64,000 nt of DNA from Cenarchaeum symbiosum A (GTDB lineage Archaea; Thermoproteota; Nitrososphaeria; Nitrososphaerales; Nitrosopumilaceae), in NCBI GenBank assembly GCA_000200715.1, contig DP000238.1:1142593-1206592 (forward strand). Reading direction: 5' to 3'. The position numbers and the translations under genes were made by a program. The notes under the pieces are model-generated. The model did not search any database, was not told the origin of the DNA, and saw only the letters and a list, made by a program, of their open reading frames with translations. Of the stretch, positions 7,549-47,909 are shown piece by piece. Position 1 is the stretch's first letter; each line of letters starts with the position of its first letter.

Positions 7549-9690
7549 ATGAAATCCGAGATAACATCAATTACAAAGATACTTGACGGCGGGTGCCAGA
7601 TAAGCGTCCCCATATACCAGAGGGGATACAGCTGGACAAGGGGGGAATGCCGCCAACTGTTGGAAGACGTGAAAAAGGTAAGCCGTGGGGAAAGGACAAA
7701 CCATTTCATGGGTACAATAGTGTGTGCCTATGACAAAGATGTCTCGAAGGGCGGCATGCGAAGATACACCGTTGTAGACGGCCAGCAACGGCTTGCTACC
7801 ATCTCACTTTTGATAAATGCATGGTCGATAAAATACAAAAAAAGCCTGGTTTGTGATTCCAACCAGCTCAATAATACCCGTAATACTTACCTGGAAAATT
7901 CGTATGTCAACAATGAAGACAAATACAAGCTGGTATTGACAAACACCAATCTTGATCGCACTACATATGAGAGATTAATGTCAGAGAAGGATTCCACGGG
8001 CAATCCGAAACAAAAGCCCTTCAAGGGGCATTCCAAGGCCATAATGTCGGCACACAAATTCTTCATGTCCTCGCTGGATGGGGAAAAGGTTGATCTTGAC
8101 AAGATACTTTTGGGCATACGCGGGCTGGTTGTGGCGTTTACCGAGGTAGAATACGGGGAGGACAACGTACAGGAGATATTTGAAAGCCTCAATACCACGG
8201 GAAAGGAGCTGTCAAACTCGGATTTGATACGAAACTATATGCTTATGAATCTGAACATTGACGAGCAGACGAAATTACATGATCCTTATTGGAGAAAGAT
8301 AGAGAGCGTATTCAGTGATAATCCAATCAAGTTTGATGACTTTATCTATAATTTCCTGCTGTTCAAGACCTATCAAAAGGGGAAGATATACGGCAAGAAA
8401 AAAACCTACGACAAGTTCAAGGAGCATGTAAGGGATCAAATGGAACATGGCATGGGCAAGAAGGACATACTGGCCGACATGGACAAACATGCCGAATATT
8501 ACAAGAACATACGTGATGCATCATTTGATGACACACTCGACGGGCGCAAGTTGAATCGTGCAGCCAGCCTGAACAATCTGGACCTGGGCTCGGCATACCC
8601 CCTGCTGTTCAAACTGATGAGGGATTACGACAGTAACAAGCTTGGTGTGGATGAGCTTGTGGAGATCATGGGTATAATTGAATCATACCTGTTCAGGAGG
8701 AAGGTATGCGGGCTGTACATCACACAGAGACGCAACTTTCTACAGATGATGAGCGGTGTCGACAAAAGCGGTGACTACTTGAACAACCTTAAACGTATGC
8801 TGGCAAGGAACCAGCGGGAAAACTTCCCCGGCGATGGTGATTTTGAGAAGGACTTTGCGGAAATGGATGATGCGTACAAGTTAGCCAAGTACATACTGCT
8901 CAAGCTGGAAAACCACGGGGATGACTTTAAGACGGCCAAGAAAGATCTTACCATAGAGCACATAATGCCACAAACTATCGATGAATCAGATAAACCAGGC
9001 GGATGGAGGGATATGCTTGGGCCCGACTGGAGGAACATTCATGCCGAGTATCTAAATGCCGTTGGAAATCTTACATTGGTCACTGGTCCGGACAATCCCA
9101 AGATGAGCAACGATCCGTTTCACGAAAAGATGGAATTCTATACGAAAGGTAACTTGCGCCTGAACGAGACAGTCAAAAACTCCCCAACATGGAATGCCGA
9201 TACCATACGCAGCAGAAGCAGGATGCTTGCAAAGTGGGCCCTGGAGGCATGGAAATATCCGCTGGAAACTGAAGGTAGGCTTGAACGAGATACCCAGGAA
9301 GACGCATACCTTGCCGGAGTCGACGCTGACAGTGTTGAAGTATATTACAGTTTCAAGAATGTCGTACAGAATACATTCAAGGATTTAACGGTCAAGTCCA
9401 CCAGCAACTATATCGGGGTTTATCGTGACGGCAAGAGGCTTTGCGGCATATTCAAGAGGGGCGGCATGTTACATCTCATATATCGCGCACGTGGAGACGA
9501 CTTTGAGGCTGACAATATGTTTGTGAGGCCTGTATCTGAAGATGGTACACGAACACACATGTCAGATCTCGGGAATTACATGTCAAATATGGAGAGTGAG
9601 GAGGACGTGGCCGAAATCATGGAGGTGCTGCGCAGGTTGTATAATGATGATGGTAGTACCGGTGTGGGTGAGGATAAAAATAGAAAATAA
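7549..9690 (+). CDS. GmrSD-type type IV restriction enzyme (DUF262 and DUF1524 domains)
   Basis: Restriction protein predicted to cut modified foreign DNA, using nucleotide hydrolysis by the GmrS-like part. The DUF262 signature is clear: VPIYQRGYSW near residue 23 and VVDGQQRLATISLL near residue 75, the latter the NTP-binding loop. Near residue 467 the DUF1524 HNH-type nuclease motif IEHIMPQT is followed by NAVGNLTLVTGPDNPKMSN. The last 120 residues form a further alpha/beta domain (YYSFKNVVQNTFKDL...), like the DUF4268/DUF5655 tails often attached to such enzymes. Both halves are fused in one chain of 713 residues, as in many single-chain homologues. It sits beside a YwgA-like gene in a defence-rich island. 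Confidence 0.88.
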   Translation: MKSEITSITKILDGGCQISVPIYQRGYSWTRGECRQLLEDVKKVSRGERTNHFMGTIVCAYDKDVSKGGMRRYTVVDGQQRLATISLLINAWSIKYKKSLVCDSNQLNNTRNTYLENSYVNNEDKYKLVLTNTNLDRTTYERLMSEKDSTGNPKQKPFKGHSKAIMSAHKFFMSSLDGEKVDLDKILLGIRGLVVAFTEVEYGEDNVQEIFESLNTTGKELSNSDLIRNYMLMNLNIDEQTKLHDPYWRKIESVFSDNPIKFDDFIYNFLLFKTYQKGKIYGKKKTYDKFKEHVRDQMEHGMGKKDILADMDKHAEYYKNIRDASFDDTLDGRKLNRAASLNNLDLGSAYPLLFKLMRDYDSNKLGVDELVEIMGIIESYLFRRKVCGLYITQRRNFLQMMSGVDKSGDYLNNLKRMLARNQRENFPGDGDFEKDFAEMDDAYKLAKYILLKLENHGDDFKTAKKDLTIEHIMPQTIDESDKPGGWRDMLGPDWRNIHAEYLNAVGNLTLVTGPDNPKMSNDPFHEKMEFYTKGNLRLNETVKNSPTWNADTIRSRSRMLAKWALEAWKYPLETEGRLERDTQEDAYLAGVDADSVEVYYSFKNVVQNTFKDLTVKSTSNYIGVYRDGKRLCGIFKRGGMLHLIYRARGDDFEADNMFVRPVSEDGTRTHMSDLGNYMSNMESEEDVAEIMEVLRRLYNDDGSTGVGEDKNRK

Positions 9691-34708: not shown

Positions 34709-37700
34709 GTGGGGCGCCTGCGCATAACCGGCCCTGCCGTGCTCCTTGCCGTTCTTTCCCTGGCCGCGGCCCCGCAGGCAGAGGCCCTGCCGGGAATCGT
34801 CTCGGCCACGCTGGACGCAGACGGGGTGCTCCTTACGATAGTCTTTGATGATACAGTGGATGCATCAGGCATAGATCCGTCAAAGATCCACGTCAGGGAC
34901 GGGGGGGCCCTGTCCGGCGGTGCGACGTTTGCCGGGGGCCTGCTGTTTAGCGCGGAATCCGACACGGTGCGGCTGGCCGTGCCCCCCGGTGCAAGGGCCA
35001 CCGTATCCGGGTATGCCGCCCCCACGCTGCACTTTGACGCAGGGGCGCTCGAAAAGGGCGGGGAGGACTTTCCCCCCGCGTTTGCATTTCCCCAGGAGGA
35101 GGCGGTGACATCCTTTCTGTTTACAGAAGAGGGCACCCCGCAGGGTCTGGCGTTCTCGCCCGACGGCACTCTGATGTTTGTCGTCGGGTCCGATCAGGAT
35201 GCGGTCTTTAGGTACGGGCTAGACCCCCCGTACGATGTCACCTCGGCGGCGCCCGCCGGATCATACAGCGTGCAGTCCGAAGAGGGAGACCCGCGCGGGC
35301 TTGCCTTCTCCCACGACGGAACTAGCATGTTCGTTTCTGGCGGCACGAACTTTGTATACCGGTATTCCCTGGGCACGCCCTTTGGATTTGAGCCCGCGCC
35401 GGAGCTGGACGGCAGCCTTGACGTGGGCGCGTCGGACGCCCAGGTCACGGGCCTGGACTTTGGAGACGGCGGGACGCGGATGTACATATCGGGCGACCAG
35501 GGAAACGGCATCCACCAGTACGACCTGCCCGCACCATACAACATAACCGGGGCGGCGCGCGCCGGAAGCTACAACGTGGGGGGCGAGGACGGGGGGCCCC
35601 GCGGGGTGGCAGTCTCAGAAGACGGCCGCACAATGCTGGTGCTCGGGCAGGGCACCGACAGGATATACCGGTATTACCTCGGGGGCGCCTTTGACGTGGG
35701 CACGGCCATGCTGGTGGAGTCCATGCAGGTTGCAGAGACGGAGAACAACCCGCGCGGGCTTGCTGCCTCCGGGGACGGCCGCATAGTCTTTGTCACGGGA
35801 TCTAACGACGAAAGGGTCTACGCGCACAATCTTGGAGATCCATACGACCTAGCGGGATCCTCGCATATCCCAGGCGGGGATATCAGGATAGCAGGGGAGG
35901 GGAACCCCAGCGGCGTGGCCTTTACGCCCGACGGGACCGTCATGCTGGTCGTTGGCAACAGCAGGGATCTTGTATACAGGTATGAGCTGCCCCGCCCGTA
36001 CGATACCGGCGGCGGGGTGCTCGACGGAGTATCCAGTACGGCGCCGGCGAGGACACCCGACGGGATCGCCTTCTCGAACGACGGCAGCGTCATGCTGATC
36101 GTGGATAGGAGGGGCGCCGATGTATACATGTACGACCTGGCGGAGCCGTACGCGCCGGCCAACGAGACGCATTCCTCCACCCTATCCGTGGCCGCACACG
36201 AGGAGAACCCCACGGGGATCGCCCTCGCATCGGACGGCAGCGCCGTCTTTGTCATAGGCCATCAGACGGACAGCGTGTACAGGTTTGATCTCGGGGGGAG
36301 CCTGGACCTGGGATCGGCGGTCCATTCGGCCTCCTTTGACGCCGGCCCGTACGTGACGGGGCCAACAGGCATAGCCCTCTCCGCCGACGGGCACAGGTTG
36401 TTCATCAGCGAGCGCGTTACAAATCTTGTGCACAGGTTCGAGATGGCTATCCCGTACGACATAGCCGCGGCAGCATACGTGGATTCGCTGGACGTCTCGG
36501 GCCAGGACGACATACTGCTCGATATTGCATTTGCAGCAGACGGCTCGGCCATGTTCGCGGCAGGCGCCAGAAACGATATGGTATACGCATATGCGCTGGG
36601 CTCCGGCTACGACATCACGCCGTCGGCGGGCATCATATCCGTGCCGGCTGAAGACCCCTCGGGGCTTGCACTGTCCGAGAACGGCGCCATCATGGCCCTG
36701 GCATCAGGGGGCGATATCATAAGCGGCTTTACGCTGGGCTCGCCGTACGGGCTGCACACGGCAATACCCTCGGAGATCCCCGCGCCGCCAGGAGAGGGCG
36801 ACCTTAGCGGGGTGGCAATATCAGACGACGGGAGGTACATGTACGCAATCGGCGGGGATCTGCTCACCGTATACCGGTATACAATGAACCCGCCCCATGA
36901 CATAGCCTCGGCCACCCTCGGTGCGCAGTCATTTTCTCTGCCCGGCGGCATCAGCCCCGCCCCCGGCGCGCCGACCGGCCTTGACATCTCGGATGACGGC
37001 CGCCACCTGTACGTCCCGGACGAAAACGGCGTCGTGTACAGGTTTGATCTGGAAAGCCCGCACAGGCTAGACGGCGGCACGTTTGGCTCTTCTGTTTATG
37101 TGGGATCCGACGTTGCCGCGCCCCGCGGCGTATACGTGGCGCCGGGCGGCAGCCTCATGCTGGTCTCAGATAGTGCAGACGGCACTATCCACAGGTACGA
37201 GCTGGCAAGCCCGTACGAGCCGGCGGGCGCGGCAAACAGGGGATCATTCGACGTATCGGATATGGACGGCTCGCCTGTCGGGGCGGGGTTTGCGGGCGGC
37301 CTGCACATGTATATAGCGGGAAACGACACTGGGAGGGTCTACCAGTATCCGGCGGGCACGCACCAGATACAGGCGGCAGCCGCAGGGCCGCGGCTGCTCT
37401 CGGCCGTCCTGGACAAAGACGGAACCCTGAGGGCCGCCTTTGACGGCACGATAGACGCGGGATCCGTGCAGCCCGGTATGATCACTATTAGGGACGGCCA
37501 TGGCTCCAATACGGGAATACCCCTTTTGCTTGCCGGGGGTGCCGCGGACTCTGATGTCTTGACATTTGTGGTCCCCGAAAAAGACAGGGCCGCGGCTGCC
37601 GCCTACGGGGACCAGTCGCTGCATGTTCCCGCCGCGTCGCTGGCGGGGACTGGCGGCGGGCCGTTTGTGCCCGACTTTTCCGGGGGCTCGCTGCTGGCTC

Positions 37701-40700
37701 ACCTGTACCGGCACGAGCGGCCGTTCCAGGGCGAGGAGATGGCACGGACGGAGAGTTCCGACAGGTACGCGCTGACTGTAACTGCAGGCGGGAATCAGAT
37801 GCATGTGGGCGGCGCCGACGGAAACATCACCTGGTACGATCTTGGCACGCCCCATGACATAACGACCGGCGTCCGCGCGGGATCCGACATCCTGCCGGCG
37901 TATCCATCCGCGGGCAGAAACGTGGTGCCGTCAATAACGGGGATTGCCTTTTCGGATGACGGCATGCGGTTGTTTGCAGCAAATAGGGGCGACCGCATTC
38001 CAATGTACCAGCTGGGCAGCCCGTACGACATAGAGAGCGCCAGCCTCGAGGGAACCCTGTTTACGGGGTTCCAGTCGGGCATTGCATTCTCGGATGACGG
38101 CACGCGCATGTTTGCCGCCCTGCTCACCGAGAATGCCATACGGCAGTACGACCTGGGAAGCCCCTATGACATACGCGGGGCGGGCAATGCGGGCCAGTAC
38201 GACCTGGACATCCCGCTGCACCCCGGACTGCTGTTCCTGCTGACCTCGGGGGTGCACTTTTCGCCCGACGGGACAAGGATGTTCGTCGGCGAGGGGATAT
38301 CAGATGCGGAGGATGCCAACGCGAACAGGGATGTCAACGTCAACCTGTGGCACAGGTTTGATCTCTCCACGCCGTTTGATGTGCTCACGGCGGAGCGCGT
38401 GGACACGTACGAGTACGGCACGGGGCCGGCAGGCGATCTCGAGGACCTCTCCCTGTCCCCCGACGGCCGCAGATTGTACACCCTGTCGAGCGAGAGGGTA
38501 AGCTCAAGCGAGTATACAATCACCCGGGCCCAGTACTGGCTGCCAGAACCGTACGACGTGACGCCGCCGTACCATGTGCCGTCATTCAACGCAAGCCAGG
38601 GGGGCAACCTGGCAGACCCCTACGGGATGGCCTTCTCGCCCGACGGGACCAGGCTGCTGGTCGCGGGGCACGGGCAGACGAATGCAAAGCTGTTCCACCT
38701 GGATCCGCCCTTTGATGTGGGCACGGCCGTGTTCCACGACCACGGCAGGTTCCGCCCCGGGGGGCCCGCAAGCGAGATCGAGGCGTCTGGGATATCCCTG
38801 TCTGCCGACGGCTCCAGGATATTTCTCTCCGACCGCGGCCGCGGGGCCATCAGCCAGTACACGCTGGTTGCGCCCTTTGATGTGGAGTTTGCGTCGGATG
38901 TGTCCGCGGATAGTCAGCTCGACGTTGGCGCCCAGGATGCGCTTCCCGGCGGGCTTGCCTTCTCGCCCGGGGGGACGAGGCTCTTCATGGTGGGAGGCAT
39001 GGACAGGTCCGTTCACATGTATTCCCTGAATACGCCGTTTGACCTGGGCGGGGCAGAGCATGCTGCGTCGTTTGGCGTGGGGGACAGGGTCTCGGATCCC
39101 CTCGGCATCGCCTTTGGAAACGGGGGGACTGAGATGCTAATAGCCGATACGACAGGCTTTGTGCACGGGTACAGCCTTGGCGCCCCGTACGATATCTCGG
39201 GCCCCGCGTACAGCGGGATATTTGACGCAGGCGGCAGCATCCGGGACGTGGCCGTCGGCGGGGGGTCCATGTTCATACTCGAGGGGGAGACGGACCGGGT
39301 GTATGAGCACCGCCCCGGCATATACCCGGTGGTCTCAGCGCTGGACGGGCCGGCGCTGGTCTCTGCTGCAGCAGATGCAAGGGTGGGCGCGGCCGAGGCG
39401 CTCTTTGATCGCGCGGTGGATGTTGGCGGGATAGACCCCGGGGGGGTCCGCATAGTGGATGCAGCAGGCCCCCTGCCCGGCGTGGTGATCTCGGATGCCG
39501 TTATGACAGGCGAGGATCCAGGCGTGGCCAGGTTCAGCCTGTCGGACGAGGAGATCCTTGCCGTGTCCGGGTATGCCGAGCCGAGTCTGGTCTTTGGAAG
39601 GCATGCGGTGCCGGGCGCGGCAGGCGGCACATTTCCCTCCCAGATAGGCAACGCCACGGAGCTTGTTGCCTCGATTCCGAATCCGACCCTGGATTTTGGG
39701 ACGACCCTGACGGGGGCGGCATTCTCGGCGGACGGGTCGGTGGTATTTTTCTCAGACGGCCCCACCGGCAGGGTGTACCCGTATTCGCTGAATATTCCCT
39801 TTGACATATCGTCTGCGGCGCCCGGGGGCTTTGTAATCGTGCCCGTCGGAGTCTCGGACATTGCGTTTTCTGCCGACGGGCGGAACATGCTAGTCGCGGA
39901 CGAAACCGGGGGAATACACAGGTACCTGGCCCGCAGCCCGTACGAGATAGGCACGGATTTCATCAAATCATCCCTGGGTGAGTTTGTCGAGACATTCTCG
40001 GCGGCGCCCCGCGTGCAGGATCTTGCCGGCATCGCCTTTTCGCACGACGGCATGATCATGCTTGCGGCCGGCGGCTCGGGGTCTGTGCACCGGTACTCGC
40101 TGCCATCCCCGTATGCAGTATCGGGGGCCAAATACGAGGAGACGGCGATGATTGGCGGGAGCCCGTCGGGGCTGGAGTTCTCGTCCGACGGCCTGAGGAT
40201 GTTTGTTCCCGATGCGGGCTCGGAGACGGCGGCAGTCTACGGCCTTGCCGCCCCCTACAAGATTGGGGGGGCGGAGCCGCTGCCGCCGCTGTTCCTGGGT
40301 GCGGGGGCAGAAGAGGCCACGCTCTCGCCGGACGGCAGGCACATCCTAGTGCCCGGCAGCCCCGGCCTGTCCCAGTACTCGCTGTTCTCGACGAATCTTG
40401 AGCTGTGCGCGGAGCCCCGGGGCCTTGACGGGGGATCGTGCGAAGATGGGATATACGCCTTTGAGAGTCCGGGCAGGGGCGAGGGCGTATCGCTTGCCGC
40501 CTCGATAACGGCGGCAGACGGGCCGGGGATTGGCGAGCTGCACGGGTTTGCAGGCCCGCCGATGCCGGCGCCGGCCATGGAGCAGGTCACACTGGATTCA
40601 CGGGAGGGCACGCTCAGGGTCAGGCTGGACAGGACAGTGGACGTCGGCACGGTGCGCCCCTATAAGATGTGGGTGGAGGATTCAGACGGCAGCCAGACAA

Positions 40701-43700
40701 CCCTGGCAAATTCAACACTGTTGAATGCCGAAAACTCGAACATTCTGCTCTTCAGGCTGGATGATGCGGCCGCAGGCAAAATATCCGGGTATGCATCCCC
40801 CGTGTTTCGCACGTGGTCGTCGCCGTTCCTGGGCACAGACGGCGCCACCAGGCCCCATACGCTGGGCTTTGGCGATGTCAGGCTGGCCGACATATTCGAT
40901 GCATCAGAACGTGCCACGTCTCCGTCGGGCATAGTATTCTCGGAGGATGGCATGGGGATGTTCCTTACGGGGTTTGAGAGCCACGGAGTGCATGAATTTG
41001 CGCTGACACATCCGTTTGACATCACACGCCCTGAATATGTGCGCAGGCACGAGGTGGGCAACATATTCTCGGCAGACCTGGCGTTTACAGAGGGCGGATC
41101 GCGCCTGATACTATTGGACGGGGGCGGCGTGCTGCGCAGTTATACGCTGGGGACAGACTATGATCCCGGCAGGATAACCTCCCAGGACGGCCTTCTTTCC
41201 CTGCCCGGCAGTCCTGATTCATTTTACATGCACCCGGACGGCAGCACCATGCTTGTTGCATATGACGACAGGGTTGACTGGTATCAACTATTACGGCCAA
41301 GTGATGTGAGATTTGCATCCATAGAATCCTCGTATTCGCTGTCAAGGCCTTCTGCCCCGACCGGAATAGACATGTCGCCCGACGGGCGCAGGATGTTTAT
41401 CTCCACAGAGAACGGGGTGGACCACTACCTGCTCTCAGATCCGTTTGCAGTCGCCACGTCGGTATACTTGCGCACAACCCCCCTTGACGTTGTGACGGAG
41501 GGAATACGGTTTGTAGACAACGGAAGGGGGCTGTTTGTGGCGGGAGCCGGCGGCATTATCCAGAGGCACGAGCTCATCGACCCGTACGGGGCCAGCACGT
41601 CGCTGCTGGAGACCATCAGGGACGGCGTGACGGACGGCAGCCCGGGCGAGAACCCGGCCGCCGGGGAGATCAGCCTTGCGGGCACATTCAATGCGTCCGA
41701 TAACGTGCCGTCGCCGTCGGGCATTGAGTTTTCAGATGACGGCATGACGATGTTCGTTACGGGGATCGGCACGCCAGGCATCAACATATTCACACTGTCC
41801 GCCCCCTTTGACATAACATTGCCGAAGCATTCCGGCTCAACCAGCATAGGCGGCCTGTCCGTGTCTGATCTGGCATTTGCAAACAATGGGAACAGCCTCA
41901 CGGTGCTCGATGTGGACGGGGTGTTGCGCGTCTACGCCCTTGGGGACGATTACAATGTGGTCACCGGAACCACCCAGAAGTTTAGGATTACGCTCGATGC
42001 CACACAGGGCATACCCAATTCCATTTACACATCTCCAGACGGCCTGTCACAGTTTGTGGCATATGATGACAGGATTGACTTGTACGTGCTTGGCAGCCCA
42101 AACGACATATCGTCGACAACCGAGATAATCCCGTATTCGCTGCCAAGGCCGGACCCGCCAACCGGCATGGACTTTGCGCCAGACGGGCGCTGGATGTTCC
42201 TGTCCACCGAGAACGGGATAGACCAGTACCTGCTGTCTATCCCCTTTGACGTGAGCAGCCTGACGTATACGGGAACCATTACAGTAGACGGGGTGGAGGG
42301 AATGCAGTTTGCGGACAACGGTAGGGCACTATTTTTGGCGGACAGTGAAGGTTTGGTTTACAGTTATGACCTAGAGGATCCGTATGCGCTCGATGGCAAC
42401 ACAATTTCCGTGGAATTCTCGTCTGACGGTAGCGTGATGTATGTGCTGGAATACGACACAAAAAGGGTGGTCTCGTATGAATTGGGGTTCCCCTTTGACG
42501 TATCTAGCAGAATGCGGGCAGGCACGCTGGACATACCGCAAGTTGACTCGCCAAGACACGTTGCAGTCTCGATGCCCGGCAACCACCTGTACATAACAAA
42601 CTCGCCATTTGGGGAAGATGACACCATACACTCCTATGGAATATCCAACAATGACATATCGTCGGCATCATACATCGGCGAGGAAGGCATCCCGGAACCC
42701 GTGATAAACGGGATTGACTTTTCCAACAACGGCCGCCGCATGTTTCTGATTGGGGGCAACGGGTTCGACTACCAGGTGATACATGATTACGCGCTAGACA
42801 CGAGACACGACATATCCAGCAGGAGGCTGCTTGATACACATGCCATTCCGGGGCCGGTTGTTTTTCCTGCGGGCCTTGATTTCTCACAAGACAGGCTGTC
42901 CATGTTTATAATAAGCACCGACGGTTCAGTATACAGGTACGGCCTGGACGAACCGTTCATAGTTGAAACGATGGACTATCAAGAGTCCTTCAGATTGCCC
43001 GTACCATCATCGGCTGATAATTCAATATCAGATCTGGCATTCGGCAGCGGCGGCCTGAGTGCCATAATATCGCACGAGGGGCTCGACACCCTGTACAGCT
43101 TTGCACTGGCAGCCCCGTATGGGGCCGAATTGGATGCTGGAAGGCTTGAGCTTCCACTGGTGGGGGTTCCGACGGGATTCGAGTTCTCGGACAACGGGAG
43201 CCAGTTGTACATTGGCGCGTTTCGTGACTCTCAATCCTCGCCAGGCACCCTGCCTGCGGGCCTGCAGCGCTATGTGCTTGGGGTGCCGTATGACCCGGCT
43301 TCGGCGGTATTTGCCCAGTCCCTGAACATATTCGATTTTCCTCCCTTCAACGGCATGCGGGCCAATGGCAGCTTGGCAGGATTACATGTGCCACCCGATG
43401 GAAGCATCCTGTTCAGGGCCGGAAATGCCGAAAGGACCGTAATCAGCTATGACATGGACAGCCATGATTTGGATACATTATCATTCAGGGAATCATTCAA
43501 ACCAGATGTCGGACAGTCGACACCCAACATAAGGGACATGGACATATCCCCGGACGGCATGTTCCTCTACCTGCTTCAAGGCGATGTTCTGGACATGTAC
43601 AACCTTACAGATAGTTATTCGCTTGATGCCCCGGCATATGCGGGTACCCTGGATTTGGAACCGGCGGATGTAATACCCAGGGGGATTTCATTCTCACGGG

Positions 43701-46700
43701 ATGGCACGAGTCTGTTTATGACAGGCGAAGACGTGGACCACATTCACGAATATGCATTGAATGAACCATGGGACATACGCAATGCCATACTTGCAGGCTC
43801 CCTGTCCATAAGCGCAGTGAACGGTGCACCGCGGGGGCTGGATATATCGGAGGATGGCACAACTGCATATACTATGCGCGGGCGTGACTTTGACACGGGG
43901 CCTGCATCCCTGGTAAACCACATATTGCCAGGCCAATATTCCCTGCTGACTGATGCGCCGGCGTTTGCATACCCCGTGGAGGAGGAGGGTGCACCGGGGG
44001 ATCTCGCATTCTCCGATGACGGCATGCGCATGTTCGTGGCGGGCGTAAACAACCATTTAAGACAGTACAACCTGCTGTCGCCGTATGACACTGAAAATGC
44101 GGAACATTTCATCTCGACGGATCTGCTGACTGCGGACAGGGGCCCCACGGGTCTTGTATTTTCAGATGAGAACGACTTTTTCAGCACAGGCGCCAGGGCC
44201 CAATTTGTGCGCCAGTTTACGACAAACCGCCCGTACGACGCATCCACAATAACACTGAGTGACAACGGACTGTACAAGGTGAGCGTGGACGGCCTGCCGT
44301 CCGGCATACGGTTTACCCCCGACGGCATGAAGATGTTCATATCGGGCCAGGAGACGTCCATGATATACCAGTATTCCCTGCCGTCACCGTATGACACATC
44401 CGGGGCAGTCAGGGACAGGGTTGAGATAGTCGCAGGGCTTTTTAGAAATGCAGGTTTGTCCGTCGGGTTGAACGAGCCCAGTCCATCCGGCTTTGAGTTC
44501 TCGGAGGACGGAATGGAGCTGTACGTGACGGGGTCGGGCCTTGTTCACAGGTATTTCCTGCCATCGCCATACGGCCTCGAAGATGCGGCGTACGGGGGCA
44601 GCTTCCACACGTTCAGGGAGAGCACGCCGCTGGGAGTGGTGGTGCGGGGGGATGCCATGTTTGTGGCCGGGGACAGCACTGATTCCATATTGAAATATTC
44701 CCTGAACGCACAACCTGTCGGCAACATAACCCATGCCGATACGCGCGCCGGGATTGCCGACAGGGCGGAGATCAGGTTTGGGGCAATGGCAGATACGCGC
44801 GCCGAGATTCTCGACGGCGCCGATGCAGTTCATAAGAGTGTGAAAATTGACGTATTCCCAATATCGGAGGGCATAACAGTGGGCAGGGCACTTTATCCAG
44901 AGGACGCCGCCATACTTGATGACGGCGCGAATGCCACGCATAATAGGGTTGTAATCATTGTTCACGACATAACAGAAGGCGATGCGCCGTCCATACATGA
45001 TGAGCCTATTGCCGTGGGGATTTACGCCCTCGGCCCCATGGATACAATCGCCGTGGTTGATCTCTACAGCCTGGCCGTATCCGCATCCTTGTCCGGGGGT
45101 GATTCCCCGTCGGCCTCAGATGCATCCGGAGTAGTGGCCGAGAGCCGCAGAAACGCGGTGGACAGGCCTGGCGTGGAAGAGCGCATAGTACGTGGTGCAT
45201 CCCTGGAGGCGGCCGACAGACCTGCCGTCGACGACATGATGGATACGGATAGTGCCGGGATGTACGACCGCAGCCCGGACGACGGGCCCGCCGTATCCGA
45301 CAGGTCCGCGCTGGGGCTTGCCCGGATGGCAGCCGACAGGCCTGTAGTCGATGACATGATGGATACGGATAGTGCCGGGATGTACGACCGCAGCCCGGAC
45401 GACGGGCCCGCCGTATCCGACAGGTCCGCGCTGGGGCTTGCCCGGATGGCAGCCGACAGGCCTGTAGTCGATGACATGATGGATACGGACAGTGCCGGGA
45501 TGTACGACCGCAGCCCGGACGACGGGCCCGCCGTATCCGACAGGTCCGCGCTGGGGCTTGCCCGGATGGCAGCCGACAGGCCTGCCGTCGATGACATGAT
45601 GGATACGGGTAGTGAGAGCACGAGCAGGCTTGGACCGGTTGACAGGCCAGAAATAGTCGAGCGCCACAGCCTGGCCGCATCTGTATACCTGTCCGGGGGC
45701 GATTCCCCGTCGGTTGCAGACGGTCATGATGTGGAGTCCGAGGGCCGCAGAGACGGGGGGGACAGGCCTGGCGTCGATGAGCGTGTAGTCATCAAGATCT
45801 CATACAGCCGCGGCGCGGCCGATGCGCCCAGAGTGGAGGATGCAATGGAGACTTCCGGCGTGGCCGCGTACAGCCGCGGCGCGGCCGATGCGCCCAGAGT
45901 GGAGGATGCAATGGAGACTTCCGGCGTGACCGTTCCCAGGCGCAGTGCCATGGACGCGCCCACAGTGGCCGATGACCACAGCCTGGCCCGGGCCGCATCC
46001 ATATCCGAAGGCGATTCCCCGACATTTGCAGAGGCGCGCAGCGCGGATACCGTTGGGGACATAGACGAGGTGGACGCGCCCGCCGTGGCCGATGACCACA
46101 GCCTGGCCCGGGCCGCATCCATATCCGAAGGTGATTCCCCGACATTTGCAGAGGCGCGCAGCGCGGATACCGTTGGGGACATAGACGAGGTGGACGCGCC
46201 CGCCGTGGAGCCAAGAGTAGTGCCCAGGGGCGGCGGCGGTGGCGGCGGCGGGGGAGGCAGTTCTCCGAACCGCGGCCTAGAACCGCATGGCGGCGGGTAT
46301 GAGATTGACTTTGAGTTCCGCATAGACGGCAGGCTGGTGCTGTTCAATGGGACAGACGTGCTAGCCGAATCCGGCGAGGACCTGCTCGTCCGTCCGGTGT
46401 TCCGGCCGGAGGGGAGTTTCAATGTATTTGATATGGAGGTGCTGTTTACCGCCCCCAGCGGGGAGATATCGACTGCCTACTACAACAGGGCTGGAATCCT
46501 CATGGGGATTGACTGCGGCGAGCTGATTATGACCGATACGACGTATTCATGCGACATGCTGGACATATTCGGAGATGAGATATACCATGTGGAGAGGCTT
46601 GACGCATTCAACGGCATGGTCATCTCCTTGGACGGCCCCCTCGACGGGACAGTCAGTGTATCGCTTCGTGACAGCCACGGCATCCCGCTGGCGCAGCATC

Positions 46701-47068
46701 GGCTGCATAAATACGAGATTTTGATTTTGGACGCCGCTGAAAACAGACCCCTGTCAGTCTCGATGGACCCCAAGCCCGTGCCGGATCCGGCGCCCGTGAT
46801 GTCCGAGCCCCTCCCGATGGACCCGGAGCCCGTGGAGGATCTAGAGCCTGTGCAGAATCTAGAGTCCCTCCCGATGGACCCGGAGCCCGTGGAGGATCTG
46901 GAACCCGTGCAGCATCTCGGGCCCGTGCAGGGATCCCCGCCCGTGCCGGGAGGGCCGGAGTCCGTGGAGTCAGGCATAGCATACACGCTATGGCAGTTCC
47001 TTTCAGGACTGCTGGATGCCCTGGGTCTTGCCGACCCGGATGTCGGATCTGTCCAAAAAGCGTCCTGA
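34709..47068 (+). CDS. giant secreted propeller-repeat protein (4,119 aa)
   Basis: Very large exported protein, probably on the cell surface. A signal peptide (AVLLAVLSLAAAPQAEA) is followed by four Ig-like domains (about residues 27-110, 890-985, 1535-1640, 1950-2050) of the form 'VSATLDxDGxLxxxFDxTVD'. Between and after them lie about 50 units of 40-55 residues of the type 'PxGLAFSPDGTxMFVxGxxxDxVYRYxLxxPYDI', as in beta propellers. Residues 3345-3830 are Asp/Arg/Pro-rich tandem repeats, then a poly-Gly linker (about 3840), a beta-rich domain (3860-4010), a Pro/Glu/Asp repeat (DPEPVEDLEPVQ) and an amphipathic end. No transmembrane anchor is evident. GTG start overlaps a GGAGGT motif. Adhesion or host contact is inferred. 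Confidence 0.85.
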   Translation: MGRLRITGPAVLLAVLSLAAAPQAEALPGIVSATLDADGVLLTIVFDDTVDASGIDPSKIHVRDGGALSGGATFAGGLLFSAESDTVRLAVPPGARATVSGYAAPTLHFDAGALEKGGEDFPPAFAFPQEEAVTSFLFTEEGTPQGLAFSPDGTLMFVVGSDQDAVFRYGLDPPYDVTSAAPAGSYSVQSEEGDPRGLAFSHDGTSMFVSGGTNFVYRYSLGTPFGFEPAPELDGSLDVGASDAQVTGLDFGDGGTRMYISGDQGNGIHQYDLPAPYNITGAARAGSYNVGGEDGGPRGVAVSEDGRTMLVLGQGTDRIYRYYLGGAFDVGTAMLVESMQVAETENNPRGLAASGDGRIVFVTGSNDERVYAHNLGDPYDLAGSSHIPGGDIRIAGEGNPSGVAFTPDGTVMLVVGNSRDLVYRYELPRPYDTGGGVLDGVSSTAPARTPDGIAFSNDGSVMLIVDRRGADVYMYDLAEPYAPANETHSSTLSVAAHEENPTGIALASDGSAVFVIGHQTDSVYRFDLGGSLDLGSAVHSASFDAGPYVTGPTGIALSADGHRLFISERVTNLVHRFEMAIPYDIAAAAYVDSLDVSGQDDILLDIAFAADGSAMFAAGARNDMVYAYALGSGYDITPSAGIISVPAEDPSGLALSENGAIMALASGGDIISGFTLGSPYGLHTAIPSEIPAPPGEGDLSGVAISDDGRYMYAIGGDLLTVYRYTMNPPHDIASATLGAQSFSLPGGISPAPGAPTGLDISDDGRHLYVPDENGVVYRFDLESPHRLDGGTFGSSVYVGSDVAAPRGVYVAPGGSLMLVSDSADGTIHRYELASPYEPAGAANRGSFDVSDMDGSPVGAGFAGGLHMYIAGNDTGRVYQYPAGTHQIQAAAAGPRLLSAVLDKDGTLRAAFDGTIDAGSVQPGMITIRDGHGSNTGIPLLLAGGAADSDVLTFVVPEKDRAAAAAYGDQSLHVPAASLAGTGGGPFVPDFSGGSLLAHLYRHERPFQGEEMARTESSDRYALTVTAGGNQMHVGGADGNITWYDLGTPHDITTGVRAGSDILPAYPSAGRNVVPSITGIAFSDDGMRLFAANRGDRIPMYQLGSPYDIESASLEGTLFTGFQSGIAFSDDGTRMFAALLTENAIRQYDLGSPYDIRGAGNAGQYDLDIPLHPGLLFLLTSGVHFSPDGTRMFVGEGISDAEDANANRDVNVNLWHRFDLSTPFDVLTAERVDTYEYGTGPAGDLEDLSLSPDGRRLYTLSSERVSSSEYTITRAQYWLPEPYDVTPPYHVPSFNASQGGNLADPYGMAFSPDGTRLLVAGHGQTNAKLFHLDPPFDVGTAVFHDHGRFRPGGPASEIEASGISLSADGSRIFLSDRGRGAISQYTLVAPFDVEFASDVSADSQLDVGAQDALPGGLAFSPGGTRLFMVGGMDRSVHMYSLNTPFDLGGAEHAASFGVGDRVSDPLGIAFGNGGTEMLIADTTGFVHGYSLGAPYDISGPAYSGIFDAGGSIRDVAVGGGSMFILEGETDRVYEHRPGIYPVVSALDGPALVSAAADARVGAAEALFDRAVDVGGIDPGGVRIVDAAGPLPGVVISDAVMTGEDPGVARFSLSDEEILAVSGYAEPSLVFGRHAVPGAAGGTFPSQIGNATELVASIPNPTLDFGTTLTGAAFSADGSVVFFSDGPTGRVYPYSLNIPFDISSAAPGGFVIVPVGVSDIAFSADGRNMLVADETGGIHRYLARSPYEIGTDFIKSSLGEFVETFSAAPRVQDLAGIAFSHDGMIMLAAGGSGSVHRYSLPSPYAVSGAKYEETAMIGGSPSGLEFSSDGLRMFVPDAGSETAAVYGLAAPYKIGGAEPLPPLFLGAGAEEATLSPDGRHILVPGSPGLSQYSLFSTNLELCAEPRGLDGGSCEDGIYAFESPGRGEGVSLAASITAADGPGIGELHGFAGPPMPAPAMEQVTLDSREGTLRVRLDRTVDVGTVRPYKMWVEDSDGSQTTLANSTLLNAENSNILLFRLDDAAAGKISGYASPVFRTWSSPFLGTDGATRPHTLGFGDVRLADIFDASERATSPSGIVFSEDGMGMFLTGFESHGVHEFALTHPFDITRPEYVRRHEVGNIFSADLAFTEGGSRLILLDGGGVLRSYTLGTDYDPGRITSQDGLLSLPGSPDSFYMHPDGSTMLVAYDDRVDWYQLLRPSDVRFASIESSYSLSRPSAPTGIDMSPDGRRMFISTENGVDHYLLSDPFAVATSVYLRTTPLDVVTEGIRFVDNGRGLFVAGAGGIIQRHELIDPYGASTSLLETIRDGVTDGSPGENPAAGEISLAGTFNASDNVPSPSGIEFSDDGMTMFVTGIGTPGINIFTLSAPFDITLPKHSGSTSIGGLSVSDLAFANNGNSLTVLDVDGVLRVYALGDDYNVVTGTTQKFRITLDATQGIPNSIYTSPDGLSQFVAYDDRIDLYVLGSPNDISSTTEIIPYSLPRPDPPTGMDFAPDGRWMFLSTENGIDQYLLSIPFDVSSLTYTGTITVDGVEGMQFADNGRALFLADSEGLVYSYDLEDPYALDGNTISVEFSSDGSVMYVLEYDTKRVVSYELGFPFDVSSRMRAGTLDIPQVDSPRHVAVSMPGNHLYITNSPFGEDDTIHSYGISNNDISSASYIGEEGIPEPVINGIDFSNNGRRMFLIGGNGFDYQVIHDYALDTRHDISSRRLLDTHAIPGPVVFPAGLDFSQDRLSMFIISTDGSVYRYGLDEPFIVETMDYQESFRLPVPSSADNSISDLAFGSGGLSAIISHEGLDTLYSFALAAPYGAELDAGRLELPLVGVPTGFEFSDNGSQLYIGAFRDSQSSPGTLPAGLQRYVLGVPYDPASAVFAQSLNIFDFPPFNGMRANGSLAGLHVPPDGSILFRAGNAERTVISYDMDSHDLDTLSFRESFKPDVGQSTPNIRDMDISPDGMFLYLLQGDVLDMYNLTDSYSLDAPAYAGTLDLEPADVIPRGISFSRDGTSLFMTGEDVDHIHEYALNEPWDIRNAILAGSLSISAVNGAPRGLDISEDGTTAYTMRGRDFDTGPASLVNHILPGQYSLLTDAPAFAYPVEEEGAPGDLAFSDDGMRMFVAGVNNHLRQYNLLSPYDTENAEHFISTDLLTADRGPTGLVFSDENDFFSTGARAQFVRQFTTNRPYDASTITLSDNGLYKVSVDGLPSGIRFTPDGMKMFISGQETSMIYQYSLPSPYDTSGAVRDRVEIVAGLFRNAGLSVGLNEPSPSGFEFSEDGMELYVTGSGLVHRYFLPSPYGLEDAAYGGSFHTFRESTPLGVVVRGDAMFVAGDSTDSILKYSLNAQPVGNITHADTRAGIADRAEIRFGAMADTRAEILDGADAVHKSVKIDVFPISEGITVGRALYPEDAAILDDGANATHNRVVIIVHDITEGDAPSIHDEPIAVGIYALGPMDTIAVVDLYSLAVSASLSGGDSPSASDASGVVAESRRNAVDRPGVEERIVRGASLEAADRPAVDDMMDTDSAGMYDRSPDDGPAVSDRSALGLARMAADRPVVDDMMDTDSAGMYDRSPDDGPAVSDRSALGLARMAADRPVVDDMMDTDSAGMYDRSPDDGPAVSDRSALGLARMAADRPAVDDMMDTGSESTSRLGPVDRPEIVERHSLAASVYLSGGDSPSVADGHDVESEGRRDGGDRPGVDERVVIKISYSRGAADAPRVEDAMETSGVAAYSRGAADAPRVEDAMETSGVTVPRRSAMDAPTVADDHSLARAASISEGDSPTFAEARSADTVGDIDEVDAPAVADDHSLARAASISEGDSPTFAEARSADTVGDIDEVDAPAVEPRVVPRGGGGGGGGGGSSPNRGLEPHGGGYEIDFEFRIDGRLVLFNGTDVLAESGEDLLVRPVFRPEGSFNVFDMEVLFTAPSGEISTAYYNRAGILMGIDCGELIMTDTTYSCDMLDIFGDEIYHVERLDAFNGMVISLDGPLDGTVSVSLRDSHGIPLAQHRLHKYEILILDAAENRPLSVSMDPKPVPDPAPVMSEPLPMDPEPVEDLEPVQNLESLPMDPEPVEDLEPVQHLGPVQGSPPVPGGPESVESGIAYTLWQFLSGLLDALGLADPDVGSVQKAS
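45213..45606 (+). repeat. 120-bp tandem repeat, three near-identical copies
   Basis: Units 45241-45360, 45361-45480 and 45481-45600 differ at only a few bases, with partial copies on each side. Each encodes 40 residues including DDMMDTDSAGMYDRSPDDGP and AVSDRSALGLARMAADRP. DNA-level identity shows a recent or ongoing copy-number change. Confidence 0.95.
45803..45934 (+). repeat. 66-bp tandem repeat, two copies
   Basis: Copies 45803-45868 and 45869-45934 are identical except in the last few bases. They encode YSRGAADAPRVEDAMETSGV. Confidence 0.95.
45956..46207 (+). repeat. 120-bp tandem repeat, two copies
   Basis: The stretch starting near 45968 recurs 120 nt later with only a few base changes. 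It encodes DDHSLARAASISEGDSPTFA and EARSADTVGDIDEVDAP. The poly-Gly linker follows directly. Confidence 0.95.
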
Positions 47069-47276
47069 TGCGTTCAAAAAGCCGGCCCTGCCCCCGTGTG
47101 CGCGGCCATGCTTCAACATGATGGGTTTGAAGGGACCAGCCCGGGATCCTGTTACTTGCATCGGCTGTCCCTGTATGCTGCCACACGGTTGCTTTGTGTG
47201 ATCATTTCCGGGCAAAGATCAAGTCATTGATTGGAAAACTTAAATCATGCATGAGAGCGAGGTCGGCCGGGGAGAT

Positions 47277-47909
47277 ATGTCGGAGAATTTTGTGACGTTT
47301 TGCGTGGCATGTGCCAGGGGCGTCACAAAGGACGAGATGAAGTATGTAGACGGGAGGATCTTCCACAAAGAGTGCTATGCAAGGCACGGCGGGCAGATCC
47401 GCTTCCCCAACCCCGAGATCGGGCAGCGCGTGACCGAGCTCAAGGTGGACCTGATACAGCTGAGAAAACAGCTGGCCGAGATGAACAAGGCGACAGATAC
47501 GAAAAAAGATAAGCAGAGAGAGGCCGGCAAGAAAGCAGCCAAGACGAGGAAGCTCAAAAATGCTGGCAAGAAAGCAGCCAAGACGAGGAAGCTCAAAAAT
47601 GCTGGCAAGAAAGCAGCCAAGACTAGGAAGCTCAAAAATGCTGGCAAGAAAGCAGCCAAGACTAGGAAGCGTAGAGAGGCCGCCAGGAAAGCCGCCAAGA
47701 CTAGGGCGCGTAACAATGCCGCGGGTAAAAAGCCGGCGCGAAAGTCGCCAAGTAGAAAGAGCACTATAACGCGCAGAAAGGCCGCTGGCAAGAAGGCAGT
47801 GGTGCGCAAAAAGACCGCGGGCAAAAAGCCGGCGCGAAAGTCTCCCGGCAAAAAGAGGGCTGTAACGCGCAGAAAGGCCGCCCGCGGGGCCGGCACAAAG
47901 AGGCGCTAG
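47277..47909 (+). CDS. zinc-finger protein with a histone H1-like lysine-rich tail (210 aa)
   Basis: The first 45 residues hold FCVACARGVTKDEMKYVDGR and IFHKECYARHG, a Cys/His set like half a LIM or zinc ribbon. A short coiled coil follows (residues 50-75). The remaining 130 residues are Lys/Ala/Arg repeats: four copies of a 13-residue unit (AGKKAAKTRKLKN), then longer KKPARKSP units, as in histone H1 or Hc1 tails that bind DNA. The ATG at 47277 is preferred to 47247 because the TATA element (AACTTAAATC, 47236-47245) lies 30-40 nt before it. A second protein with such a tail is at 10303. Role in chromatin is inferred. Confidence 0.82.
   Translation: MSENFVTFCVACARGVTKDEMKYVDGRIFHKECYARHGGQIRFPNPEIGQRVTELKVDLIQLRKQLAEMNKATDTKKDKQREAGKKAAKTRKLKNAGKKAAKTRKLKNAGKKAAKTRKLKNAGKKAAKTRKRREAARKAAKTRARNNAAGKKPARKSPSRKSTITRRKAAGKKAVVRKKTAGKKPARKSPGKKRAVTRRKAARGAGTKRR
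47515..47680 (+). repeat. 39-bp tandem repeat, four copies
   Basis: The unit ggcaagaaagcagccaagac plus aggaagctcaaaaatgct repeats from about 47525 with only one or two base changes, encoding the 13-residue AGKKAAKTRKLKN motif. Confidence 0.9.

Follow-up and report, generated by a model that had tools for sequence, protein, structure and literature searches.

What does the giant gene at positions 34709–47068 of the stretch analysed here encode, and which role could its product play? The stretch, called the window in the following, comprises 64,000 nucleotides of Cenarchaeum symbiosum A (assembly GCA_000200715.1, contig DP000238.1, positions 1,142,593 to 1,206,592 of the forward strand). The initial annotation had described a secreted protein of 4,119 residues with about 50 propeller-type units between four immunoglobulin-like (Ig-like) domains, and had named it a candidate for contact with a sponge host or for a surface coat. 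Our analysis points to 11 propeller rings of five blades each, joined in one chain with a constant C-terminal end, in a protein that belongs to a large family of paralogues. That this target protein is secreted and displayed at the cell surface as a modular adhesin or recognition protein is, in our assessment, fairly probable, if by no means assured.

The open reading frame and its predicted chain of rings

The gene is a single open reading frame (ORF) on the forward strand (34709–47068), with a GTG start and no internal stop. The frame is not a product of chance, because stop-free runs in the shuffled window reached just 275 codons (50 mononucleotide shuffles, one strand), compared to 4,119 codons in the gene. 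A chance ORF was also rejected based on the ratio of non-synonymous to synonymous substitutions (dN/dS), which is 0.32 to the closest paralogue (G000:C1:819958–830649 of the same genome) over 3,351 aligned codons; with its high proportion of silent differences (pS), this ratio is a rough one. Such a value is as would be expected for a translated, constrained gene. The giant ORF of the initial annotation is confirmed, and it is intact and constrained. The mature protein has a mass of 430 kDa, an isoelectric point (pI) of 4.27 and four cysteines. Its N-terminus, MGRLRITGPAVLLAVLSLAAAPQAEA followed by LPG, was judged by eye, without a predictor, to be a Sec signal peptide (residues 1–26, ending in APQAEA; 34709–34786). 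No hydrophobic stretch beyond the signal peptide stands out as a transmembrane helix in the whole protein.

Searching the target protein with a blade hidden Markov model (HMM) that was derived from it and its paralogues gave 55 blades. They fall into four arrays (15, 10, 5 and 25 blades), with one Ig-like domain ahead of each. The propeller blades of the initial annotation are present, while their number has to be corrected from about 50 to 55, and its four Ig-like domains were all found again. Ig-like domain 1 (residues 30–125; 34796–35083) precedes array A (35093–37378), the 15 blades of which correspond to rings 1–3 (approximately residues 129–390, 391–640 and 641–890). Ig-like domain 2 (residues 896–990; 37394–37678) is followed by the two rings of array B (residues 1005–1540; 37721–39328), Ig-like domain 3 (residues 1550–1645; 39356–39643) by the single ring of array C (residues 1651–1900; 39659–40408) and Ig-like domain 4 (residues 1959–2046; 40583–40846) by the five rings of array D (residues 2057–3339; 40877–44725), all on the forward strand. 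Of 24 relatives, 6 showed a weak match of the first Ig-like domain to the Pfam model Big_5 (E ≤ 0.1, best 0.0084); the first domain of the target protein itself gave none.

Blades are counted in fives throughout the family. Among the 117 arrays with at least three blades in 30 ORFs of the genome (two single-blade arrays were removed beforehand), 96 have a blade count divisible by five; a further 12 exceed such a count by one blade, 7 fall short of it by one, and 2 deviate otherwise. The arrays are related to one another, and the nominal binomial p is not a real probability. When moduli from 3 to 10 were compared on these arrays, five and ten alone were above expectation. A seven-bladed reading was rejected, with an exact multiple of seven in only 1 of the 117 arrays and five blades in the predicted fold. 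Blade-to-blade identity within the family is 0.32–0.37 at lags of 5, 10, 15, 20, 25 and 30, compared to 0.30–0.31 elsewhere. The grammar of the family is strict: each block consists of an Ig-like domain followed by 5n blades, up to 15 blocks follow one another, and the genome holds 114 Ig-like domains. In the congeneric genome G005, NHL arrays come in sixes instead (63 of 71 arrays, taken from 13 ORFs that were chosen by repeat pattern and in part cut by the fetched stretch, after removal of one two-repeat array). This count serves as a fair internal check on how the blades were counted, and no other comparison made here is as telling.

The structure prediction suggested in the initial annotation was carried out for two parts of the array A region and yielded a five-bladed ring. 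The AlphaFold2 model of residues 384–651, based on 14 aligned rings, features 20 strands (pLDDT 90.5, pTM 0.89) and is predicted to be a closed ring of five four-stranded blades. In a larger model (residues 28–650, pLDDT 77.9), the fifth blade is followed by a break of low confidence, and the VIA matches of this two-ring model mostly cover a single propeller, in either its first or its second half. Since the arrays are counted in fives and the predicted ring has five blades, the most suitable reading of the target protein is that of 11 consecutive rings with five blades each, in blocks of 3, 2, 1 and 5.

In VIA, the best matches of the single-ring model were YjiK (3qqz, Z 22.8) and the glutaminyl cyclases 3mbr (22.4), 2iwa (21.8) and 2faw (21.1), where rows within 1 Z of each other count as tied. 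The top rows have a root-mean-square deviation of 2.9–4.1 over 216–224 residues matched in chains of 236–254; NHL domains rank lower (Z 20.2 and below). Type I glutaminyl cyclases are described as five-bladed in PMC10653852. These cyclases and the C-terminal domain of YjiK are the best fold matches of the ring, but are single-domain. In Pfam searches with the whole protein, generic propeller families alone were found (SGL, E 6.2e-28; Lactonase, E 4.9e-21; WD40, strictosidine-synthase-like and arylesterase models). The SGL and Lactonase matches and the enzyme folds in VIA would suit rings that are tandem displayed enzymes of the lactonase, gluconolactonase or glutaminyl-cyclase type. We regard this as highly unlikely: WD40, strictosidine-synthase-like and arylesterase models match equally, so that the Pfam matches follow the generic blade, and 11 copies of an enzyme in one chain would be odd.

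Searches of PDB sequences with the ring profile gave a surface-layer protein as the best match (1l0q, E 1.4e-22), while glutaminyl cyclases and YjiK were absent from the matches at E ≤ 0.001. Tachylectin-2 was not among the fold or profile matches listed, an absence that excludes nothing. Propellers of the YVTN type, as in 1l0q, are seven-bladed and adjoin an Ig-like (PKD) fold; 1l0q itself is reportedly a surface layer protein of Methanosarcina, described by Jing and colleagues in 2002. It is an archaeal surface protein, and no other solved sequence comes as close to the ring profile; the target protein differs in its five-bladed rings, 11 per chain, and in its constant module and tag. The signal peptide judged by eye, the acidic pI, the propeller and Ig-like architecture and the surface-layer protein as best match all agree with the secretion and surface role proposed initially, and secretion and fold together are very likely correct.

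A second explanation of the same data is a bulk structural coat, in which the family would build or decorate either the surface layer (S-layer) or a thick capsule of protein, with rings that act as spacers and have no specific ligands. The match to 1l0q would suit such a coat, as would the size of the family and the acidic pI of the target protein and of the 28 family ORFs above 800 residues (4.06–4.73), which resembles the range of 3.4–4.9 given for thaumarchaeal S-layer proteins in the excerpt of PMC6790972. We consider a mere coat rather unlikely, but clearly more plausible than the enzymatic explanation.

Constant end, genome-wide family and paralogue mosaic

The last 785 residues and the genome-wide family (267 matches in the same genome) go beyond the initial annotation. 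Behind the rings follow a linker of acidic Asp-x-Pro repeats (residues 3340–3839; 44726–46225), a poly-glycine run that may serve as a hinge (46226–46258), a conserved module (residues 3864–4004; 46298–46720), a Pro/Glu-rich spacer (46721–46972) and a C-terminal amphipathic tag, GIAYTLWQFLSGLLDALGL (46973–47029), with 12 more residues behind it. Asp-x-Pro repeats were found in several, but not all, of nine family tails. Within the linker, an Asp-Pro-rich repeat is present in three near-identical copies (45064–45621), a sign of recent tandem duplication.

The module comprises 142 residues with two invariant cysteines, which probably form a disulphide, and occurs in 25 of the 30 family ORFs. It was detected in 1 of 250 genomes of the organism's taxonomic family, in a survey that scored 16 of 48 candidates from its own genome, and has no convincing relative in Pfam or PDB sequence searches. 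The consensus of the tag is GxxDxIxxFFRSLFG. At E ≤ 1, its model has 33 matches in the genome, 24 of them to its own training rows; 8 of the 33 lie outside the 26 blade genes, some of them in proteins with other domains. Elsewhere the tag was found once, in genome G018 (2 of the 250 genomes including its own). In a set of fifteen tag peptides, amphipathicity is higher than in shuffled versions of them (mean moment 0.49 vs 0.24). Anchoring by an archaeosortase was rejected by the models run: five tails gave no sorting-signal match, and PF09721 (exosortase-type), the sole sortase-family model searched, had no match in the genome at E ≤ 0.1.

The family consists of 30 ORFs with at least three blades, equivalent to about 26 genes when split neighbours are merged, and covers 299,667 nt or 14.65% of the 2,045,086-bp genome. 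At least one more small member is located at 607972–609780. The target protein is near certain to be a member, with its blocks of one Ig-like domain and 5n blades, acidic linker, poly-glycine run and C-terminal module, while its tag has diverged from the consensus. Its size, initially described as seldom seen in Archaea, is indeed rare in general, as the excerpt of PMC11573180 indicates, but does not single out this gene, which is the seventh longest of the 30 ORFs after six of 5,246–11,983 residues.

From the signal peptide to ring C, the target protein is 63–86% identical to the paralogue 819958–830649. This close match ends at Ig-like domain 4, from which point identity is at most 38% among the best paralogue matches listed. 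The first two rings of array D appear as a tandem duplicate, being 47.5% identical over the full ring. Because of this drop in identity and the likeness of the two rings, duplication and exchange seem to act on whole rings and on blocks of an Ig-like domain with its rings.

An alternative explanation is an expansion that is largely neutral or selfish, with repeats growing by recombination and products of little function. Repeats are recombination-prone, and four family genes are apparently split by a stop or frameshift, with the constant end on the downstream piece (G000:C1:533070–536408/523798–533037 on the minus strand, G000:C1:676322–683608/683605–685434, G000:C1:764077–768948/768846–804797 and G000:C1:859605–875345/875216–877651). 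These splits may be due to sequencing error, decay or on/off switching. A neutral origin is nevertheless very improbable, given that almost every family gene retains the constant end and that dN/dS is 0.07–0.26 across Ig-like domains 1–3 and rings A–C and 0.31–0.46 in three further family pairs. Judged from these ratios, selection is strong on Ig-like domain 1, the most constrained part (0.07), and moderate on rings A–C (0.22–0.26).

Relatives in other genomes, phages and neighbouring genes

The initial annotation would have been refuted by an equivalent protein in all free-living relatives. The answer is mixed: blades do occur in some genomes that are free-living by title, mostly in proteins of 257–584 residues with a single small propeller, and long chains were not seen in these. 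A pair of blades was detected in 14 of the 250 genomes at E ≤ 1e-8, the own genome included, in a survey that scored 19 of 1,043 own-genome candidates. Judged by their titles, MED-G94, the Marine Group I cells F20 and AG-439-M12 and a San Francisco bin appear free-living; for RIS_SAG_24 and bin.103 the lifestyle is not evident from the title, and LS_AOA is listed as a sponge symbiont (PMC7848895). Short proteins with five blade matches each were found in genomes G056, G047 and G078; other proteins had three (a second one in G047), six (G076) and seven (G113).

Long chains were found in the own genome and G018, with weaker cases in G245 and G096. G018 encodes an open-ended giant of 3,186 residues with arrays of 4, 5, 5, 5 and 4 blades. 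This genome belongs to another genus, has a G + C content of 57% and carries one C-terminal tag at a contig end in addition to the blade giant. It likely represents a second lineage with a blade-giant system, as far as its sequence indicates. G245 has a five-blade stretch in open-ended ORFs, which contain repeats like SFNQPLNSWNVSSVTDM as well. We take these repeats to be DUF285-like.

The only congener seen, G005, has a genome of 3.17 Mb with about 71% G + C. It yielded no match to the module or the tag and no blade-pair match better than 8e-4. Its own giants carry a different C-terminal module at 52 places. It features 36 frames of at least 1,000 residues, which take up at most 13.0% of the genome, an upper estimate from stop-to-stop frames in DNA of such high G + C content.

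Blades are also encoded by phages. Among 50,697 phage records, 19 matched a piece of 528 residues at E ≤ 1e-5, and in three of the five records opened the blade gene adjoins annotated tail genes. Three viral contigs encode a relative of a short homologue found in G047. The plasmid search returned 16 Streptomyces records (25% identity among those listed) and PHROGs one weak match. The tail-region proteins of the Roseobacter phages CRP-9 and CRP-13 and the Lentibacter phage ICBM2 feature the same blade, with arrays of 5, 5 and 6 in CRP-9, but unlike the target gene these genes encode 403–1,241 residues without long Ig-ring chains. An exchange of blades with phages, in either direction, is possible judging from these matches. 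The ring as such is not host-specific, because blades occur in free-living relatives and marine phages.

The phage matches and the position of the blade gene beside tail genes would also suit a role in conflict with microbes or phages, either as contact-dependent effectors or as decoys or receptors for phages with blade-bearing tail-region proteins. In the target protein and its family, however, the C-terminus is the constant part and not a variable toxin tip, and no toxin domain was found in the target protein among Pfam or NCBIfam matches. A role in conflict is quite improbable in our view, only slightly less so than the enzymatic and neutral explanations.

Some observations concern the surroundings of the gene. 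The short single-propeller gene on G047:C101 lies about 5 kb from Elp3, and Elp3 also follows the giant gene in the window; this proximity is possibly remnant synteny. Directly downstream of the giant gene (47247–47909), an ORF of 220 residues is rich in Cys and His at its start and ends in a tail of lysine/alanine-rich repeats, KNAGKKAAKTRKL, which is reminiscent of a histone H1 tail; the ORF has no Pfam match. A GmrSD-type restriction gene (PF03235, PF07510) is located at 7549–9690 of the window.

Proposed role and its meaning

We propose the following role for the target protein as a surface-displayed adhesin or recognition protein. Based on its signal peptide, it would be exported by Sec and would fold outside the cell into 11 five-bladed rings, arranged in four blocks that are each headed by an Ig-like domain. 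The acidic linker and the poly-glycine hinge would join this chain to the constant module, and the Pro/Glu spacer would end in a short amphipathic helix. Attachment to the envelope, either at the membrane face or in the S-layer, most likely falls to the constant end. Outside, up to 11 ring faces could bind ligands, the first candidates being glycans or proteins of the sponge mesohyl and the second being other cells. Duplication and swapping of rings and Ig-ring blocks would vary the outer part while the end is kept. The sponge as contact partner is less certain than the role in adhesion or recognition as such.

Several points weigh against this proposal. Blades are shared with free-living relatives and marine phages. 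The lag-5 signal is faint within the target protein alone (0.304 vs 0.299), and 6 of the 28 ORFs with at least 10 blades lack a higher identity at multiples of five. The alignments behind the AlphaFold2 models are shallow (9 and 14 rows), and the Ig-like part was modelled with low confidence. In the linker and the tail, silent sites have reached saturation (pS 0.74–0.78), so that the ratios there give no measure of constraint. The anchoring of the target protein is the least clear part, because its tag has diverged and is missed by the tag model, which detects the tag in the 25 other blade genes.

The proposal can be compared to known systems. An adhesion or recognition role in the sponge matrix has previously been proposed for proteins of Nitrosospongia ianthellae and C. 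symbiosum (excerpt of PMC6790972); these probably overlap with the blade-giant family, and no architecture is given for them there. Huge archaeal proteins with SGL/Lactonase domains are described as exclusive to Thaumarchaeota (PMC11573180), and these very probably include relatives of the family, as the shared Pfam domains suggest; Cenarchaeum is not named in the main text (0 occurrences), and the excerpt gives no ring number, constant end or genome share. BapP, a marine adhesin of Pseudoalteromonas tunicata, is predicted to combine a five-bladed propeller with 12 Ig-like domains, and its deletion weakens the biofilm (excerpt of PMC12153261). The likeness to the target protein concerns the arrangement only, i.e. 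a five-bladed propeller with a series of Ig-like domains. BapP is bacterial and, according to the same excerpt, differs in its single ring, its Ca-binding Ig-like repeats and the proposed type 1 secretion. In the symbiont Apilactobacillus kunkeei, Giant1–5 are recombining extracellular proteins of 3,000–8,000 residues that take up 6% of the genome (PMC12863079). Unlike the target family, they have beta-solenoid domains and are encoded by five consecutive genes, and propeller chains are not mentioned in the abstract.

In the open literature searched on Cenarchaeum, thaumarchaeal huge proteins and five-bladed propellers, subscription papers being outside its scope, we came across no account of arrays in fives, of the constant module or of the tag. 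Within these searches, the architecture of five-bladed rings, the conserved module and tag, the genome share and the contrast with the congener appear to be new. A more far-reaching possibility, which we put forward only tentatively and hold to be less probable than the role proposed above, is a variable/constant display system composed of interchangeable ring-and-Ig bricks, a species-specific module and a sortase-independent envelope tag. The sister species, with its six-bladed NHL arrays and a different end, would then fit what an arms race would produce, or recognition specific to the host in an ancient symbiosis with an animal.

If the proposed role is correct, an animal-dwelling archaeon devotes about one seventh of its genome to a single class of modular surface giants. 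Host recognition by archaea, a long-open question, would become directly testable, with the ring of about 255 residues as a small expressible unit for ligand screening. The tag would be a candidate for a new archaeal anchoring signal, and the fives and sixes of the two congeners would form a natural pair in which to compare the turnover of such systems.
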